From: a virus
Reading direction: 5' to 3' (one strand)
Virus record (IMG/VR): IMGVR_UViG_3300042090_000326
Location: 1 to 40,097 of that record
Length of the DNA: 40,097 nucleotides
Part shown: one piece after another, positions 6,800 through 32,999 of the stretch
How positions within the stretch are numbered: the first letter of the stretch is position 1
Layout of the letters: each line of letters begins with the position of its first letter
Program-made: the position numbers and the translations under genes
Notes under the pieces: generated by a model
Told to the model about the DNA's origin: nothing
Databases searched by the model: none
The model's input: only the letters and a program-made list of their open reading frames with translations

Positions 6800-7117
6800 G
6801 TGCAGATCGAGTCGTTTCCCGACGACATCCGCTGTTGGCCGGTCAATATCGCAATGCAGCAGAGCATGATCGTGGCGCCACAGCTCTACGCCGAACCCTC
6901 GCGCTTCGGGAAAGTTGTTGCAATCGGTGATGGAAAGTTGAAAGATGGGCGGCAGCACAGGTTCGAGGTCGCAGTCGGAGACATCGTTCTTTGCACACGC
7001 TACCCCCAGAGTGGAAATACCGTAAAGTGGGAGGGGACAGAATTATTTGCCATGAGGGAGATCGAAATTCTCGCGATAATTACAACGAAGGAGACTACGA
7101 ATGGCAACGGCCGCTGA
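6800..7117 (+). CDS. GroES-like co-chaperonin
   Basis: 105 residues from a GTG with an ideal ribosome-binding site (GGAAGGG, 7 nt away). It aligns with Cpn10: IVAP (24-27) corresponds to the IVLP of the mobile loop that docks on GroEL, then FGKVVAIGDG (37-45), VAVGDIVLCTRY (58-68) and ELFAMREIEILAII at the end. Phage co-chaperonins such as T4 gp31 replace GroES so the host GroEL can fold the coat protein. Here it sits in the head module ahead of portal and coat genes, so that role is the natural inference. The basis is motif alignment; overall identity is low. Confidence 0.78.
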   Translation: MQIESFPDDIRCWPVNIAMQQSMIVAPQLYAEPSRFGKVVAIGDGKLKDGRQHRFEVAVGDIVLCTRYPQSGNTVKWEGTELFAMREIEILAIITTKETTNGNGR

Positions 7118-7856: not shown

Positions 7857-9951
7857 CGAGAGCGACCAGAAGTTCCTGAAGAAAGCGCGGGACAGATTTC
7901 GCTATTGTCTCGAGCAATGGAAAGATATTCGCGAAGAGCACGACCGCGACATGCTTTTCCTCGCAGGTGACAGTTGGGACGAGCGTGAGAAGCAGCGCCG
8001 TCGCGACAAGCACATCCCCATGATTCACCTGGACGAGCTGACGCAGTACATCAACCAGCTCAACAACGACATTCGACAGAACAAGCGCGCGGTCAAGGTC
8101 ATGCCGGTAGGCGGCGGGGCAACGAACGACACTGCTGACACGCGCTCCGACTGGATTCGCTCGGTTGAGTACAGTTCTCAGGCCCAGTCCGCATACATCG
8201 CGGCATTCGAGGGAGCGACGGGCGGCAGCTACGGCTTCTGGGGACTTGAGACGTACTACGCGGACCCGAAATCATTCAACCTGAGCGTGCGAATCCGGCA
8301 GATCGCCAATGCCAACACCATCGTTTACGACCCGGACTGCAACAACTACGACTGTTCCGACGCTGAGGACTGTTTCGAGATTCAGTGGATGTCCGAAGAG
8401 AAGTTCAAGCGCAAATGGCCCGATGCCCAGATAGCCGAGTTCTCCGAAGAAATCCAGAAAATAGCCCCAGACTGGTTCAACAAGGACAAGCAAGTACAGG
8501 TGGTGAGCTGGTGGCGCGTCATCACCGAGAAGAAGAAGCTGCACCTGGTCAAGCTGCCCGATGATTCAAGGGTGGTGATGCGCTCGGACGAGCTGCCAGA
8601 GAACCACGACCCCAAAAAGATCGTCAAGACGCGCGAGTATGACGACCGCCGCATCGTGCAGTACGTCATCAACGGCGTTGAAATCCTCGAAACGAACGAT
8701 CCGCGCAAGGGCAAGGGCTGGCCCGGCAACTGGATTCCGATTATCCCGGTCTGGGGCAAAGAGCTCTACATTGACGAGGGCGCAGGCAGCAAGAGGATGC
8801 TGTTCTCGCTCATCCGGCTCGCCCGCGATCCTCAACGGCTTCTGAACTATTATGCCTCGCAGGAGATGATGGAGGCCAAAAAGACGCCCAACGCCCCGTA
8901 TATGGGACCGAAGGGCATGTTCAGCGAGTTTGCCGATCAGTGGGAGAAGCTGAACGATGAACCGACCGCTTACGTGGAATTCGGCATCCCCGAAGGCTTT
9001 CAGCCGGGCTCAATCAAGCCTGAGCGCATCCCGTTCATCCCGAACTTCGAGGCCTACGAAGAAGCCAAAGACGCCTGCAAACGCTCGATCATGGCGGCAA
9101 TGGGGATTGCTCCTCTACCGACCGCTGCGCAACGCCAGAACGAGAAATCAGGCGTGGCTCTCGAGCGGATTCAGGGCGAACGCGCGCAGGGCAGCTTCCA
9201 TTTCATTGATAATTACGACCGCTCGCTCGAGTTCGGCGGAAGGCAGCTTGATGACGTGTTCAAGGTCATCCACGACACACCGCGAGACATCGCGCTGCGC
9301 AAGGAAGATGGCACGCACAGCATGGCGCGAGTGAACGACCCGCAATCCCCGCTCAACAAGCCCTATCAGGGCGACCACGACGTGACGATTACGACCGGGC
9401 CGAGCCACGAGAGCCAGCGCGAGGAAGCGCAGGAGTTCACCGACCAGATTCTGACGATTCCTGAAGTTTTCCCGCTCGTGGGCGATTTGGTCGTCAAAAT
9501 GCGCAACTTGGGGCCGATTGGCGACCAGATCGCGGAACGCCTGAAGCCACCTCAGTTTGCGCAGGAGGACGAGAACAACCCATTGCCCGCCGCTGCGCAG
9601 GCCAAGATGGCCCAGATGCAACAGCAACTTACGCAGGCTCAGCAGGAGAACCAGCAGCTGCAGCAGGAAAAAGCCGCAAAGATGTGGGAGATGCAGGGGA
9701 AGCTCAAGATAGAGCAAATCCACTCGGACACGCAAAGGGCGGTCGCCGAAATCAACACGAAGGCACAGAATCTCAGCGAGCGCATGGCCGCACTCGAGCA
9801 ACTCGCATCTGATTTCCATGAGCGCGCCCACGAAACCGCACTCTCTGCCCAGGAACATCAGCAAACAAAAGATCAGGCGTTGCAAGCTGCGGCGTTGACA
9901 CCACCGGATGATTCGGGCAATAATTCGGGCGGAAGCAACGGCAGTTCGTAG
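7846..9951 (+). CDS. Portal protein, P22 gp1-like
   Basis: 701 residues, close to the 725 of P22 gp1. The start (FRYCLEQWKDIREEHDRDMLFLAGDSW), HIPMIHLDELTQYINQLNNDIRQNK, the VMPVGGG segment and YDPDCNNYDCSDAEDCF are typical of the P22-like portal family. The portal forms the dodecameric ring at one capsid vertex through which DNA enters and leaves and on which the tail assembles. Residues about 580-690 are Gln-rich and heptad-like (MQQQLTQAQQENQQLQQEK), predicting a long coiled-coil barrel inside the head, which in P22 senses head filling. The final residues are Ser/Gly/Asn rich. It is followed by a small gene and the scaffold leader. Confidence 0.93.
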   Translation: MPISESDQKFLKKARDRFRYCLEQWKDIREEHDRDMLFLAGDSWDEREKQRRRDKHIPMIHLDELTQYINQLNNDIRQNKRAVKVMPVGGGATNDTADTRSDWIRSVEYSSQAQSAYIAAFEGATGGSYGFWGLETYYADPKSFNLSVRIRQIANANTIVYDPDCNNYDCSDAEDCFEIQWMSEEKFKRKWPDAQIAEFSEEIQKIAPDWFNKDKQVQVVSWWRVITEKKKLHLVKLPDDSRVVMRSDELPENHDPKKIVKTREYDDRRIVQYVINGVEILETNDPRKGKGWPGNWIPIIPVWGKELYIDEGAGSKRMLFSLIRLARDPQRLLNYYASQEMMEAKKTPNAPYMGPKGMFSEFADQWEKLNDEPTAYVEFGIPEGFQPGSIKPERIPFIPNFEAYEEAKDACKRSIMAAMGIAPLPTAAQRQNEKSGVALERIQGERAQGSFHFIDNYDRSLEFGGRQLDDVFKVIHDTPRDIALRKEDGTHSMARVNDPQSPLNKPYQGDHDVTITTGPSHESQREEAQEFTDQILTIPEVFPLVGDLVVKMRNLGPIGDQIAERLKPPQFAQEDENNPLPAAAQAKMAQMQQQLTQAQQENQQLQQEKAAKMWEMQGKLKIEQIHSDTQRAVAEINTKAQNLSERMAALEQLASDFHERAHETALSAQEHQQTKDQALQAAALTPPDDSGNNSGGSNGSS

Positions 9952-9965
9952 CTCACGGAGGACGC

Positions 9966-10163
9966 ATGGCAAAGCTGAAAAACGCAATCAAGGGTGCGGA
10001 AAAGAAAACCATGTCCCGCGGCGGCGCAGCGCCCAGCTCGAAGAAGCTGCACACGGACAAAGAGCCGGTCGGCACGATCAACAAGAAGCACTTCGGCCAC
10101 GTGCTCAAGACGGCCAGCGCGCTGCACGGCGGTGACCCTTACAAGGCCGCGCACAAGATGTAA
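9966..10163 (+). CDS. Small basic protein, unknown
   Basis: 65 residues, Lys-rich (LKNAIKGAEKKTMSRGG..., then NKKHFGHVLKTASALHGGDPYKAAHKM). GGAGG lies 5-6 nt upstream of the ATG. Located between portal and scaffold. May be a minor capsid or DNA-condensing protein; no family recognised. Confidence 0.55.
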   Translation: MAKLKNAIKGAEKKTMSRGGAAPSSKKLHTDKEPVGTINKKHFGHVLKTASALHGGDPYKAAHKM

Positions 10164-10350
10164 CGATGTTGTTGACATTTCAGTGAGTTTGGCCGCAATA
10201 TCGGCCAGCCAGCGAGATGATGGAGTCGCCTAGGCTTATCACCTAGCGTGGAGCTTGATAGGCTCCCACCGAAGGGACGAAACGCCTTCGGTAGTACGAC
10301 GGGATGTGGCCTCGTCAACCGATGATGGGAAATCTTTCATCGGAGATACG
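10164..10350 (+). ncRNA. Structured 5' leader of scaffold gene
   Basis: This 187-nt gap, the longest in the genome, has five inverted repeats in series: GGCCG/CGGCC (10191-10206); CTAGG/CCTAG (10230-10246, 7-nt loop); GGAGC/GCTCC (10250-10266, 7-nt loop); ACCGAAGG/CCTTCGGT (10268-10292, perfect 8 bp); and CCGATGA/TCATCGG (10319-10343). GTCG (10225-10228) can pair with CGAC (10297-10300), enclosing the middle three as a four-way junction. The last hairpin includes two bases of the GGAG ribosome-binding site (10342-10345). P22 scaffold protein is known to limit its own synthesis after transcription, so a cis-regulatory role is plausible; that this RNA does it is inference. Confidence 0.6.
10172..10201 (+). 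promoter_or_regulatory. Possible internal promoter before scaffold leader
   Basis: TTGACA (10172-10177) is followed after 18 bp by CAATAT (10196-10201), a poor -10. The -10 lies in the loop of the GGCCG/CGGCC hairpin. It would give the scaffold and coat genes their own transcript. The -35 is convincing, the -10 is not. Confidence 0.35.
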
Positions 10351-11376
10351 ATGGCACCAGAGACGGCAACAGTAACCGCTGATTCGTCGCCCAGCGAAAT
10401 CCTTTCCTCATTGAATCCGAAGCAAAAAGCAGAGTGGCGCCAAACGGGCGCGCTGCCCGACCTACCCGAAGCACCTCCCAAGACGGAAGTTGCGGAATCG
10501 TCACCCGCTGCAAAGGAAACACCCGAGACAAAGGTGGAAACGCCTGCGTCTGAAACGTCCGCGGCCCCGGTCGTCGCGAAGGAAGAGCACAAGCCCAACA
10601 AGGGTGCGGAGGCGCGCATCAAGGAACTGCTCGCGGATAACAAGCGGCTGGCAGCCGAATTGGAATCTGCGCGCAAGATCCCTGTTGTTGCGCCGGCGAA
10701 AGTCGAGGAAGTCGCCAAACCTCGCCGCAACGATGTGGAACTCAAGACCGGACAGCCGATGTACGCCTCTGACGAGGCTTTTGAAGAGGCCATGGAGAAG
10801 TATCTCGTCGCCAAGGTAACGGCAGACGTGAACAAGGCCAATGCGAAAGCCGCACAAGAAGCGCGCGTTGCTGCGCAAAACGAGATCGTTCAAAAGCGGT
10901 GGCTCAACTCGGTGAAGATTGCGACCGAGAAGCATTCAGACTGGCGCGAAGTCGTCAAAGTCGATGAAAAGGGAAGGTTTCAGGACGAAACCCTCAAGTC
11001 GATCAAAATTGGCAGCGTCATGGATGGATGGATTCTCGACTCGGAAATCGGCGCCGACATGCTGTACTTTCTGGCAAAGAATCCTGGCGAAGTCGAGCGC
11101 ATTCAGGCCCTCGCGCCATTTGCCGCCGCCCGCGAATTGACCAAACTCGAGGACAAGCTGCTTTCCGGCACTGAAACCCCCGCACCGCCCAAGAAGGAAG
11201 AAAAGGCTGAAGGCTCGACCACCGCAGTGACACGCGCACCAGCGCCAGCGACCACGATCAGTGGTCGCACAACTGCCCCGGCCGATCCCGTCGAACGCGC
11301 GGAGAAGAATGGGGATTTCAAGGCGTACAAATCGGCTGCCAACGCCGAAGAGTTCGCCAAGAGGAAAGCGAGCTAA
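10351..11376 (+). CDS. Scaffolding protein (P22 gp8-like role)
   Basis: 341 residues. I chose the ATG at 10351 because GGAG lies 5 nt upstream; the frame is open upstream but runs through the structured leader. The protein is highly charged, rich in Ala/Glu/Lys/Pro, with a coiled-coil-prone stretch (GAEARIKELLADNKRLAAELESARK, near residues 85-110), a helical core (FEEAMEKYLVAKVTADVNKANAKAAQEARVAAQNE) and a C-terminal domain with DPVERAEKNGDFKAYKSA. Such low-complexity helical proteins directly before the coat gene are scaffolds that guide procapsid assembly and then leave. The stop shares one base with the coat ATG. P22 gp8 has 303 residues. Confidence 0.8.
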   Translation: MAPETATVTADSSPSEILSSLNPKQKAEWRQTGALPDLPEAPPKTEVAESSPAAKETPETKVETPASETSAAPVVAKEEHKPNKGAEARIKELLADNKRLAAELESARKIPVVAPAKVEEVAKPRRNDVELKTGQPMYASDEAFEEAMEKYLVAKVTADVNKANAKAAQEARVAAQNEIVQKRWLNSVKIATEKHSDWREVVKVDEKGRFQDETLKSIKIGSVMDGWILDSEIGADMLYFLAKNPGEVERIQALAPFAAARELTKLEDKLLSGTETPAPPKKEEKAEGSTTAVTRAPAPATTISGRTTAPADPVERAEKNGDFKAYKSAANAEEFAKRKAS

Positions 11377-12623
11377 TGCCCAACACATTTGCATTCCCGC
11401 AATGGGTTTCGATGGAGGCCCTGCGGCTATTGCTCAACAAGCTCGAAGTCGTTTCGTGCTTCAACACGGAATGGCAGAAGGAATTCGAGCAGGAGTTTCC
11501 GATCGGCTCTGTCGCGCAGGTCAAGATCCCGCAGCGCTTCACGATTCGCGACGGACTCGGTTACAACCCCCAGGCAATCAACCGGCTCACCACCACCGTG
11601 AACTGCAATCAGATCATGGGCGTGGACTTCGAGTGGGACGATTTCGAGCAGGCTCTGAACATGGAGCGCTCGAAAGAGGAAATCCGCAAGCAATACCTGG
11701 AGCCCGCCGTCGCGCAAATGGCCCAGGAAACGGATTCCCGCGCCGCGCAGTTTGCCTACCAGAACGCCAACAACATCGTGGGCGTGCTTGGAACAGACCC
11801 CACGACGGTAACGACCTTCGCACAGGCCCGCCAGCGTCTGTTTGAGCTTGCGTGCCCCCCGGGAGGCGAAAAGTCGCTCTGCATCCCGCCCCAGTTCTCG
11901 ACTTCGATGGTGCCGAACCTGCAATCCTTGCTCAACCCGCAGGACGACATCTCGAAGCAGTTCAAGGAAGGCTCGCTCGGCAAGCTCCACGGCTTTGACA
12001 TCTACGAGTGCATGTCGCTCTGGCGTCATACCGCGGGAACCATTGCCGGCGCCTTCACCGTAAACACGACCAACGTGAACAATGGCGGAAACCAGATCGG
12101 CGTCAACCTCACGGCTGGCGATGCGGTCAACGCGGGTGACGTGTTCTCGATTGCCAACGTGAACCTGGTGAACCCGATGACGCGCAGGTTCCTGTCGCCC
12201 ATCGCCAAGACGTTCGTTGTGCTGCAGCCCCTCGTTGCGACGGGCGGCGGCGCGGCGGCGGATTACTTGGTTGTTTCCCCGGCCCTGTTCGGACCCGGAT
12301 CGCAGTATCAGAACGTGGACGCCCTGCCGGTCAACGGCGCGACGGTCACCTTCTGGCCCGGGACAGCCTCACCGAACGGCAAGTCGGGCGCTCAGGGCCT
12401 CGTCATTCACGGCGATGCGTTCGGATTCGTTGCCGTGAAACTCGAAGAGCCGCGAGCGACGGAAATGACCAGCCAGACCAGGGATCCGGAAACGCGGGCC
12501 GCACTCCGGTTCGTCAGGATGTGGGACCCAGTGCAAGCCAAAATGATCAACCGCTGGGATTCGGTGTTCGGGTTCGGCCAGCTCTACGCGGACAGCTGCT
12601 CGGTCCGCATGGTGGGGGCATAA
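11376..12623 (+). CDS. Major capsid (coat) protein, P22 gp5-like
   Basis: 415 residues against 430 in P22 gp5. The start (MEALRLLLNKLEVVSCFNTEWQKEF), the IGSVAQVKIPQRFTIRDGL segment, and the middle DISKQFKEGSLGKLHGFDIYECMSL match the P22 coat-protein family, an HK97-fold protein with an added domain. It forms the icosahedral shell. The region 215-320 (GAFTVNTTNVN...DAVNAGDVFSIANVNLVNP) is a beta-rich insertion common to this family. Its gene is tightly coupled to the scaffold gene, so the leader at 10164-10350 may control both. High expression is expected. Confidence 0.92.
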   Translation: MPNTFAFPQWVSMEALRLLLNKLEVVSCFNTEWQKEFEQEFPIGSVAQVKIPQRFTIRDGLGYNPQAINRLTTTVNCNQIMGVDFEWDDFEQALNMERSKEEIRKQYLEPAVAQMAQETDSRAAQFAYQNANNIVGVLGTDPTTVTTFAQARQRLFELACPPGGEKSLCIPPQFSTSMVPNLQSLLNPQDDISKQFKEGSLGKLHGFDIYECMSLWRHTAGTIAGAFTVNTTNVNNGGNQIGVNLTAGDAVNAGDVFSIANVNLVNPMTRRFLSPIAKTFVVLQPLVATGGGAAADYLVVSPALFGPGSQYQNVDALPVNGATVTFWPGTASPNGKSGAQGLVIHGDAFGFVAVKLEEPRATEMTSQTRDPETRAALRFVRMWDPVQAKMINRWDSVFGFGQLYADSCSVRMVGA

Positions 12624-32148: not shown

Positions 32149-32425
32149 CACAACTTCGACCTACGTAGTCTACCGCGCGCCGGGGGCGTGTCCTGCGGCC
32201 GGAACTACGCCTCTGCCTGCAAGCTTCGTGCAGGTCGGGACCAATTCGGCGCCTAGCTCTGGCACTTCTCTCTCGTTCACCGACACCTCCGCTACGCTGA
32301 CGGCGGGAGCCTGGTGCTACGACGTGGAAGCTACGCTTGCGGGCGTCAGTTCCAAGCCATCGAACTTCGCTCCGGTGACGATCGCTCCGGGTGCAGTGAC
32401 GATCACGGTGACAATCGCGCAATGA
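32045..32425 (+). CDS. Secreted fibronectin-III-like domain protein
   Basis: 126 residues with GGAG 7 nt before the ATG. MRKLGLLLFFLALAGISTPAQA is a clear signal peptide. The mature part is one FnIII/Ig-like domain: HSVTLTWTESVDTTSTYVVYRAPG, then SFTDTSATLTAGAWCYDVEATLAGVSSKPSNF. A Cys pair is present. Its 5' end overlaps the preceding gene by 104 nt in another frame. Such single domains bind carbohydrates or other surface proteins; role here unknown. Confidence 0.7.
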   Translation: MRKLGLLLFFLALAGISTPAQAAHSVTLTWTESVDTTSTYVVYRAPGACPAAGTTPLPASFVQVGTNSAPSSGTSLSFTDTSATLTAGAWCYDVEATLAGVSSKPSNFAPVTIAPGAVTITVTIAQ

Positions 32426-32589
32426 AGTCTTGCTGGTGGAAAGACTCTGCCTTAATGTTCAAGCGAGGCGAGCGCTGCAAGAAAACGCAAGGGCTTCAGG
32501 ACATCGGGAACGGGCTGAAGTATTGCGCAGTTCACTTCCCGAAAGTCCTGAAGCTCAGAGAGTGGATTAGGAGGGCACCCAGCCCATGA
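32422..32589 (+). CDS. Small Cys-containing basic protein
   Basis: 55 residues, basic, with Cys4, Cys19 and a late CAVHF segment, possibly a zinc site. ATGA overlaps on both sides. No recognised family. Confidence 0.5.
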   Translation: MKSCWWKDSALMFKRGERCKKTQGLQDIGNGLKYCAVHFPKVLKLREWIRRAPSP

Positions 32590-32999
32590 ACCATTTTCTG
32601 CACGAGCACGGCGTCATCTACTTCCACCTGATCTTGCTGATCCGTCTGATCATGGCGGCACTGTTCGTGGCGCTGGCCTATTGGATGGCAGAGCACATGT
32701 CGCCCGAGGCGGCGATCTTCTGGAAAGCCGTGCTGTCCGACAGCGGGAATCCTTCGTGGTCGCGCGTGGCGAGCTCGCTGCTGCTCATCGCGTGTGTCGT
32801 GTGGGATACCCGGTTTCTTTTCACGACAAATGCTCTGCCCGATGGCGGTAGTCTTAGCGCACAAGCTCTTTTTATTTCCAGCCCGTACCTGATCAACACG
32901 AGCGGAAAAGCCGTTATGATGGGCATAGCTGGCAAGCAGTCGAGCCCACCGCCTCCAGTCGTGGCGGGAGACACGACAACCGTGATGGTGGGGAAGTAG
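32586..32999 (+). CDS. Membrane protein, holin candidate
   Basis: 137 residues. Two hydrophobic segments, FHLILLIRLIMAALFVALAYWMA (about 13-35) and VASSLLLIACVVWDTRF (about 60-76), are separated by a short soluble loop, and the tail is polar with Pro-rich PPPPVV. Size, two membrane spans and position at the head of the lysis region fit a class II holin, which would let the muralytic enzymes reach the wall. Other membrane roles are possible. Confidence 0.5.
   Translation: MNHFLHEHGVIYFHLILLIRLIMAALFVALAYWMAEHMSPEAAIFWKAVLSDSGNPSWSRVASSLLLIACVVWDTRFLFTTNALPDGGSLSAQALFISSPYLINTSGKAVMMGIAGKQSSPPPPVVAGDTTTVMVGK

Follow-up and report, generated by a model that had tools for sequence, protein, structure and literature searches.

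In phage T7, promoters used by the phage RNA polymerase lie before both the scaffold gene (gene 9) and the capsid gene (gene 10), and in phage P22 the gene 8 scaffold protein reportedly represses its own synthesis post-transcriptionally. Phages need a fixed ratio of scaffold to coat protein, though one operon holds both genes. Sequestration of the Shine-Dalgarno (SD) sequence by an RNA hairpin has been described for the T4 genes e, soc and 49 and for I-TevI, the gene e hairpin being a feature of the longer early transcripts (PMC3014915). Here, we describe the gap upstream of the scaffold gene of a P22-like phage, which we judge, with somewhat better than even confidence, to be made up of a promoter and a leader of about 143 nt ending in an SD hairpin, and to act as the transcription and translation start module of the scaffold-coat block.

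Organisation of the portal-scaffold junction

The window analysed here is a viral record of 40,097 nt (IMG/VR IMGVR_UViG_3300042090_000326), in which P22-like portal and coat genes, a terminase gene and a scaffold gene were identified. The scaffold gene (10351-11376, plus strand) matches PHROG 8865, head scaffolding protein (E 1.4e-15), and is followed by the coat gene (11376-12623, plus strand; Pfam P22_CoatProtein, E 1.2e-17), the start of which overlaps the scaffold stop codon as TAATG. Upstream lies p65, a gene of 65 amino acids (9966-10163, plus strand) that is preceded by the SD sequence GGAGG and has homologues in related viral contigs; it matched no PHROG or Pfam family. The 187-nt gap noticed in an earlier, sequence-only reading of this DNA is real, extending from the p65 stop (10163) to the scaffold ATG (10351). 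The same reading held that genes overlap everywhere else. That claim holds broadly for the structural module but goes too far, since a rough gene call shows gaps there (55, 50 and about 196 nt) and larger ones in the right third of the window. A phage-encoded co-chaperonin, Cpn10 (GroES-like, Pfam E 3.3e-10; 6800-7117), lies upstream of the portal gene in this genome with a P22-type coat.

A number of other identities for the gap were rejected. The leader occurs only once in its own record, which argues against a mobile or repeated element, and no plus-strand hairpin near the gap is followed by the T-run of an intrinsic terminator. An upstream ORF (10304-10375, 24 codons including the stop), running through the hairpin termed D below and overlapping the scaffold start, was judged unconserved because its counterpart ends after three codons in the related contig L002 and lies in another frame in L003; a frame resembling it is present in L005 and L006. 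No tRNA or tmRNA was found in the window. A tRNA-Met gene does lie between portal and scaffold (L164, 4811-4884) in a prophage of Acidicapsa dinghuensis.

A coat-based search yielded 80 related viral contigs, and no further close relatives were found by p65 and scaffold alignments or in 399 Acidobacteria-class genomes; prophage-like relatives of the window's coat are present in Acidobacteriota genomes. The length of the gap varies from 187 nt in the window to about 131-135 nt in L002, L005 and L006 and 0-60 nt in L007-L009, L011 and L012, and an additional ORF of 83 amino acids, with no Pfam match, is found in the gap of L003 (4575-4862) and L010 (4706-4954). More distant relatives are without p65, and their portal and scaffold genes often overlap. 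Throughout the family, the junction between portal and scaffold is a site of insertions.

The candidate promoter and the fold of the leader

Immediately past the p65 stop codon is a candidate promoter, P2, with an exact TTGACA as the -35 box (10172-10177, plus strand) and CAATAT as the -10 box (10196-10201, plus strand), separated by a spacer of 18 nt. The TTGACA box is positioned 0-12 nt past the p65 stop in the window, L002, L003, L005 and L006, and in all five phages GCANNAT is found 17-18 nt from it, the CANNAT always being preceded by G. Within the window, the pattern TTGACA-N16-18-CANNAT occurs a single time, compared to 0.18 expected. P2 thus has the two boxes of a sigma-70-type promoter, conserved in position and 17-18 nt apart, albeit with a weak -10 that matches TATAAT at 3/6 positions in the window and 4/6 in the other four phages. 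The sequence surrounding P2 is largely unalignable between the five phages, and conservation of the site in spite of this points to a promoter. The comparison therefore argues strongly that the first 45 nt or so of the gap, overlooked as such by the sequence-only reading, correspond to a sigma-70-type promoter; the case falls short of proof because the -10 match is weak and the start site is only predicted.

From the position of the -10 box we infer use of a start site that would give a 5' UTR of about 143 nt (10208-10350, plus strand). Placed directly behind the p65 stop, P2 would produce an mRNA with this leader and would raise transcription of scaffold and coat. The -10 box is enclosed by the dyad H1 (GGCCG-CAATAT-CGGCC; 10191-10206, no strand assigned), and an mRNA from P2 would consequently not contain H1, making it at most a DNA feature. 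In the case of L003, the 83-amino-acid gene starts about 10 nt past the P2 -10 box, so the mRNA there may be nearly leaderless. A candidate upstream promoter, P1 (TTGACA-18-AATAAT; 9895-9924, plus strand), with 11/12 consensus matches, lies within the 3' end of the portal gene, and a similar site recurs upstream of p65 in L005 and L006.

The predicted fold of positions 10164-10370 has a free energy of -75.4 kcal/mol, compared to -63.9 +/- 4.45 for shuffled sequences (z -2.59), with 1 of 200 shuffles folding as well. When plus-strand windows of 187 nt, about 1000 in all, were compared, no more than six beat the leader for their G+C content, one of them overlapping the leader itself. By shuffling and by rank, therefore, the fold is more than chance. 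Folds more stable for their G+C content than that of the scaffold leader are predicted for five windows of the 32-34 kb region (32401-32681 and 34321).

The inverted repeats that had been noticed in the gap are present, and six hairpins can be drawn (H1-H4, C and D). H2 is weak (10230-10246, plus strand; probability about 0.06), whereas H3 (10250-10266, plus strand; pair probabilities mostly 0.84-0.87) and the 8-bp H4 (10268-10292, plus strand; 0.91-1.0) are confidently predicted in this phage. No counterpart of H3 or H4 was found in any relative compared, which argues that they have no conserved function. Hairpin C (GACGGG/CTCGTC; 10298-10316, plus strand) has pair probabilities of 0.43-0.66, and a GAC/GTC hairpin resembling it is found at the same place in L002 and L006 only. 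The full set is restricted to the window and L001, a contig that is identical here. A four-way junction closed by GTCG/CGAC, as once envisaged, has an ensemble probability of 0.0, because hairpin C competes for the CGAC. Of the proposal that a structured leader controls scaffold translation, what survives is hairpin D; the multi-hairpin or junction architecture is either unconserved or unformed, and the gap is not one multi-hairpin switch. The central hairpins H2-H4 may be lineage-specific filler or stabilising structure. What is a striking fold in a single sequence is thus resolved by the comparative data into a promoter, a single hairpin that is conserved, and filler that is not.

The Shine-Dalgarno hairpin

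Hairpin D (CCGATGA/TCATCGG; 10319-10343, plus strand) sequesters the GG of the scaffold SD sequence GGAG (10342-10345, plus strand), which is spaced 5 nt from the ATG. It is predicted at -10.0 kcal/mol with pair probabilities of 0.98-1.0, leaving the GG unpaired with a probability of 0.00-0.01, in agreement with the earlier claim of a terminal hairpin that holds part of the GGAG. Each of the five phages with P2 retains D, with a pairing probability near 1 for the GG (or GAG) of the SD, with arms that read CCTCGATGA/TCATCGAGG in L003, CCGATGAAG/CTTCGTCGG in L002 and CCGGTGA/TCATCGG in L006, with a very strong helix of 12 bp in L005 (-22.4 kcal/mol), and with loops that differ among the five, from 8 to 27 nt. 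When 67 scaffold start regions are ranked by their SD helix, the five phages take places 1, 2, 3, 6 and 8, and for L009-L014 and L007 the rank is low or an SD helix is lacking. Taken alone, D of the window has a p of 0.16, and SD sequences that are sequestered in part are not uncommon in this genome. Covariation, on which the sequence-only reading would have had its leader judged, amounts in D to a single double-sided change, from C-G to U-A, and two single-sided changes that preserve pairing as G-U, with 35/35 pair cells standard; with five sequences only and 4/7 pairs invariant, 100/500 shuffles score as high, and the count on its own does not decide the matter.

P2 and D co-occur in the same five phages, and both are missing from seven relatives (L007-L012 and L014), two of which, L010 and L012, retain the ribosome-binding sequence TTCATCGGAGG yet are without D. 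Both the candidate promoter and the SD hairpin are conserved at the level of sequence. L003 is placed with L007-L009 on the coat tree (93/94), which makes it probable that the two elements were gained or lost jointly two or more times.

A second hairpin, CATCG-GAGATA-CGATG (10338-10353, plus strand), involves the start codon and is mutually exclusive with D. It comprises only 5 bp, at -5.1 kcal/mol versus -10.0 for D, and most of the SD sits in its loop. The repeat CATCG...CGATG is also found in L003, L005, L006, L010, L012, L055, L071 and L093, a wider set of relatives than that of D. Since the start-codon hairpin competes with D and is seen more widely, a two-state switch between them is possible.

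By pairing the first half of the SD with the upstream CCGATGA, D would lower ribosome loading on the scaffold gene, or make it conditional on opening of the hairpin. The coat SD has an accessibility of 0.84, that of the GG in the scaffold SD being 0.00, and D would accordingly be expected to lower scaffold initiation relative to coat. As the start codon of coat overlaps the stop codon of scaffold but is served by an accessible SD of its own, the effect of D would mainly be to set the scaffold:coat ratio. This putative repression could be that of a fixed brake, or D could be opened or closed by a ligand. The promoter and SD hairpin are a small and concrete target for the study of ratio control outside the enterobacterial models.

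Rival readings and comparison with known systems

A different hairpin, here termed element B, is found 30-60 nt before the scaffold ATG in distant relatives (L203, L208, L216, L220, L188, L190, L077, L038 and about 35 more). Its arms are unrelated in sequence, its loop is GCGUNA, GCGUA or GCGCA, and it is often preceded by a box, AAGUUUAGC or GACUUUAGC. Hairpins of this type occur in 49 of 113 distinct leaders, with 24 different inner arms, versus a mean of 8.1 (maximum 14) in shuffled sets, and 38/38 pair cells are standard, versus 87.5% in shuffles. A covariance model built from ten leaders and scanned over 489 kb matched, at E below 1e-5, scaffold leaders only, including four that were not used in training (L226, L074, L062 and L218). 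No Rfam family matches 11 element-B loci, and element B is a candidate for a new RNA motif of phage scaffold leaders. The combination of box and hairpin loosely recalls the boxA-boxB antitermination site, by analogy only. The window's own leader was considered as an instance of element B, with a AAGUUUAGC-type box and a GCGUNA-loop hairpin, and rejected, as the covariance model gives no match. Both element B and the window leader are structured RNAs that lie in the 5' leader of the scaffold gene; element B differs from the window leader in not pairing with the SD, in its loop and in having no promoter.

The sequence-only reading put the leader forward as a candidate protein-sensing switch; in such an autoregulatory scheme, binding of free scaffold (or coat) protein to the leader would stabilise D and shut off the protein's own synthesis. 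Conservation of the SD hairpin fits this idea, as does the -22.4 kcal/mol hairpin of L005, which would require a factor that opens or sets it, and scaffold self-repression is said to occur in P22. Beyond the arms and the SD, however, the five leaders share no loop or single-stranded motif, and the corresponding gap in P22 is only 13 nt, such that this reading seems quite unlikely. RNase III cleavage and 5'-end protection occur in other structured phage leaders, and H3, H4 and C could shield the 5' end or serve as RNase III targets, with D being incidental. The stability of H3 and H4, and the z of -2.59 for the whole leader, would be expected on such grounds, but the absence of H3 and H4 from all relatives, where D is the conserved part, makes a role in stability or processing improbable.

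Very unlikely, too, is that D is a diverged copy of element B. The two occupy the same place, about 30-60 nt upstream of the ATG, and the D loop of L002, in a single case, is the element-B loop GCGTAAAA; the other four D loops differ, element B does not pair with the SD, and the model finds no match in the leaders of any of the five phages. Control at the level of DNA would cast the dyads H1, at the -10 box, and CATCG-N6-CGATG, at the start codon, as repressor operators. H1 encloses the -10, and weaker dyads surround the -10 in L005 and L006, but arms and spacing vary among the relatives with no common operator sequence, and short dyads rich in G+C come easily in this genome, rendering operators the most improbable of these possibilities. 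A start module of promoter and SD hairpin therefore remains the favoured reading. More speculatively, the scaffold genes of this large group of Acidobacteria-associated P22-like phages may be controlled by two RNA devices, the promoter-linked SD hairpin in the window's clade and the covarying GCGUNA-loop hairpin in sister clades, one or both being read by scaffold or coat protein. This is unlikely, but if true, it would make the question of phage scaffold/coat balance directly testable.

With regard to described systems, no Rfam model matched the leader at gathering scores, or meaningfully at E values up to 10, and the leader is outside the known Rfam families of riboswitches, ribozymes and leaders; no DNA homologue of it was found in named phages. 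P22 shares with the window the order portal-scaffold-coat and the overlap of scaffold stop and coat start. In P22, however, only 13 nt separate gene 1 (portal) from gene 8 (scaffold), with no homologous leader, and P22 autoregulation therefore cannot use one; the RNA arrangement is not common to the two phages, and the analogy drawn earlier with P22 is weak and lends no support to an RNA sensor. The likeness to T7 lies in a dedicated promoter, a candidate one in the window, that boosts the scaffold-capsid block, the T7 promoters being those of the phage RNA polymerase whereas the site here looks like a host sigma-70-type promoter. Closest to hairpin D are the T4 e-type hairpins, as in both cases a short helix pairs the SD region of a phage mRNA and lowers ribosome binding, which for D is a prediction from its fold, where the SD is paired in a stable helix. 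The late transcript of T4 gene e starts inside the hairpin and escapes sequestration. Unlike this proximal, bypassing promoter of T4, P2 is upstream of all hairpins except H1, and since it precedes the whole of D, every transcript from P2 would carry the SD hairpin.
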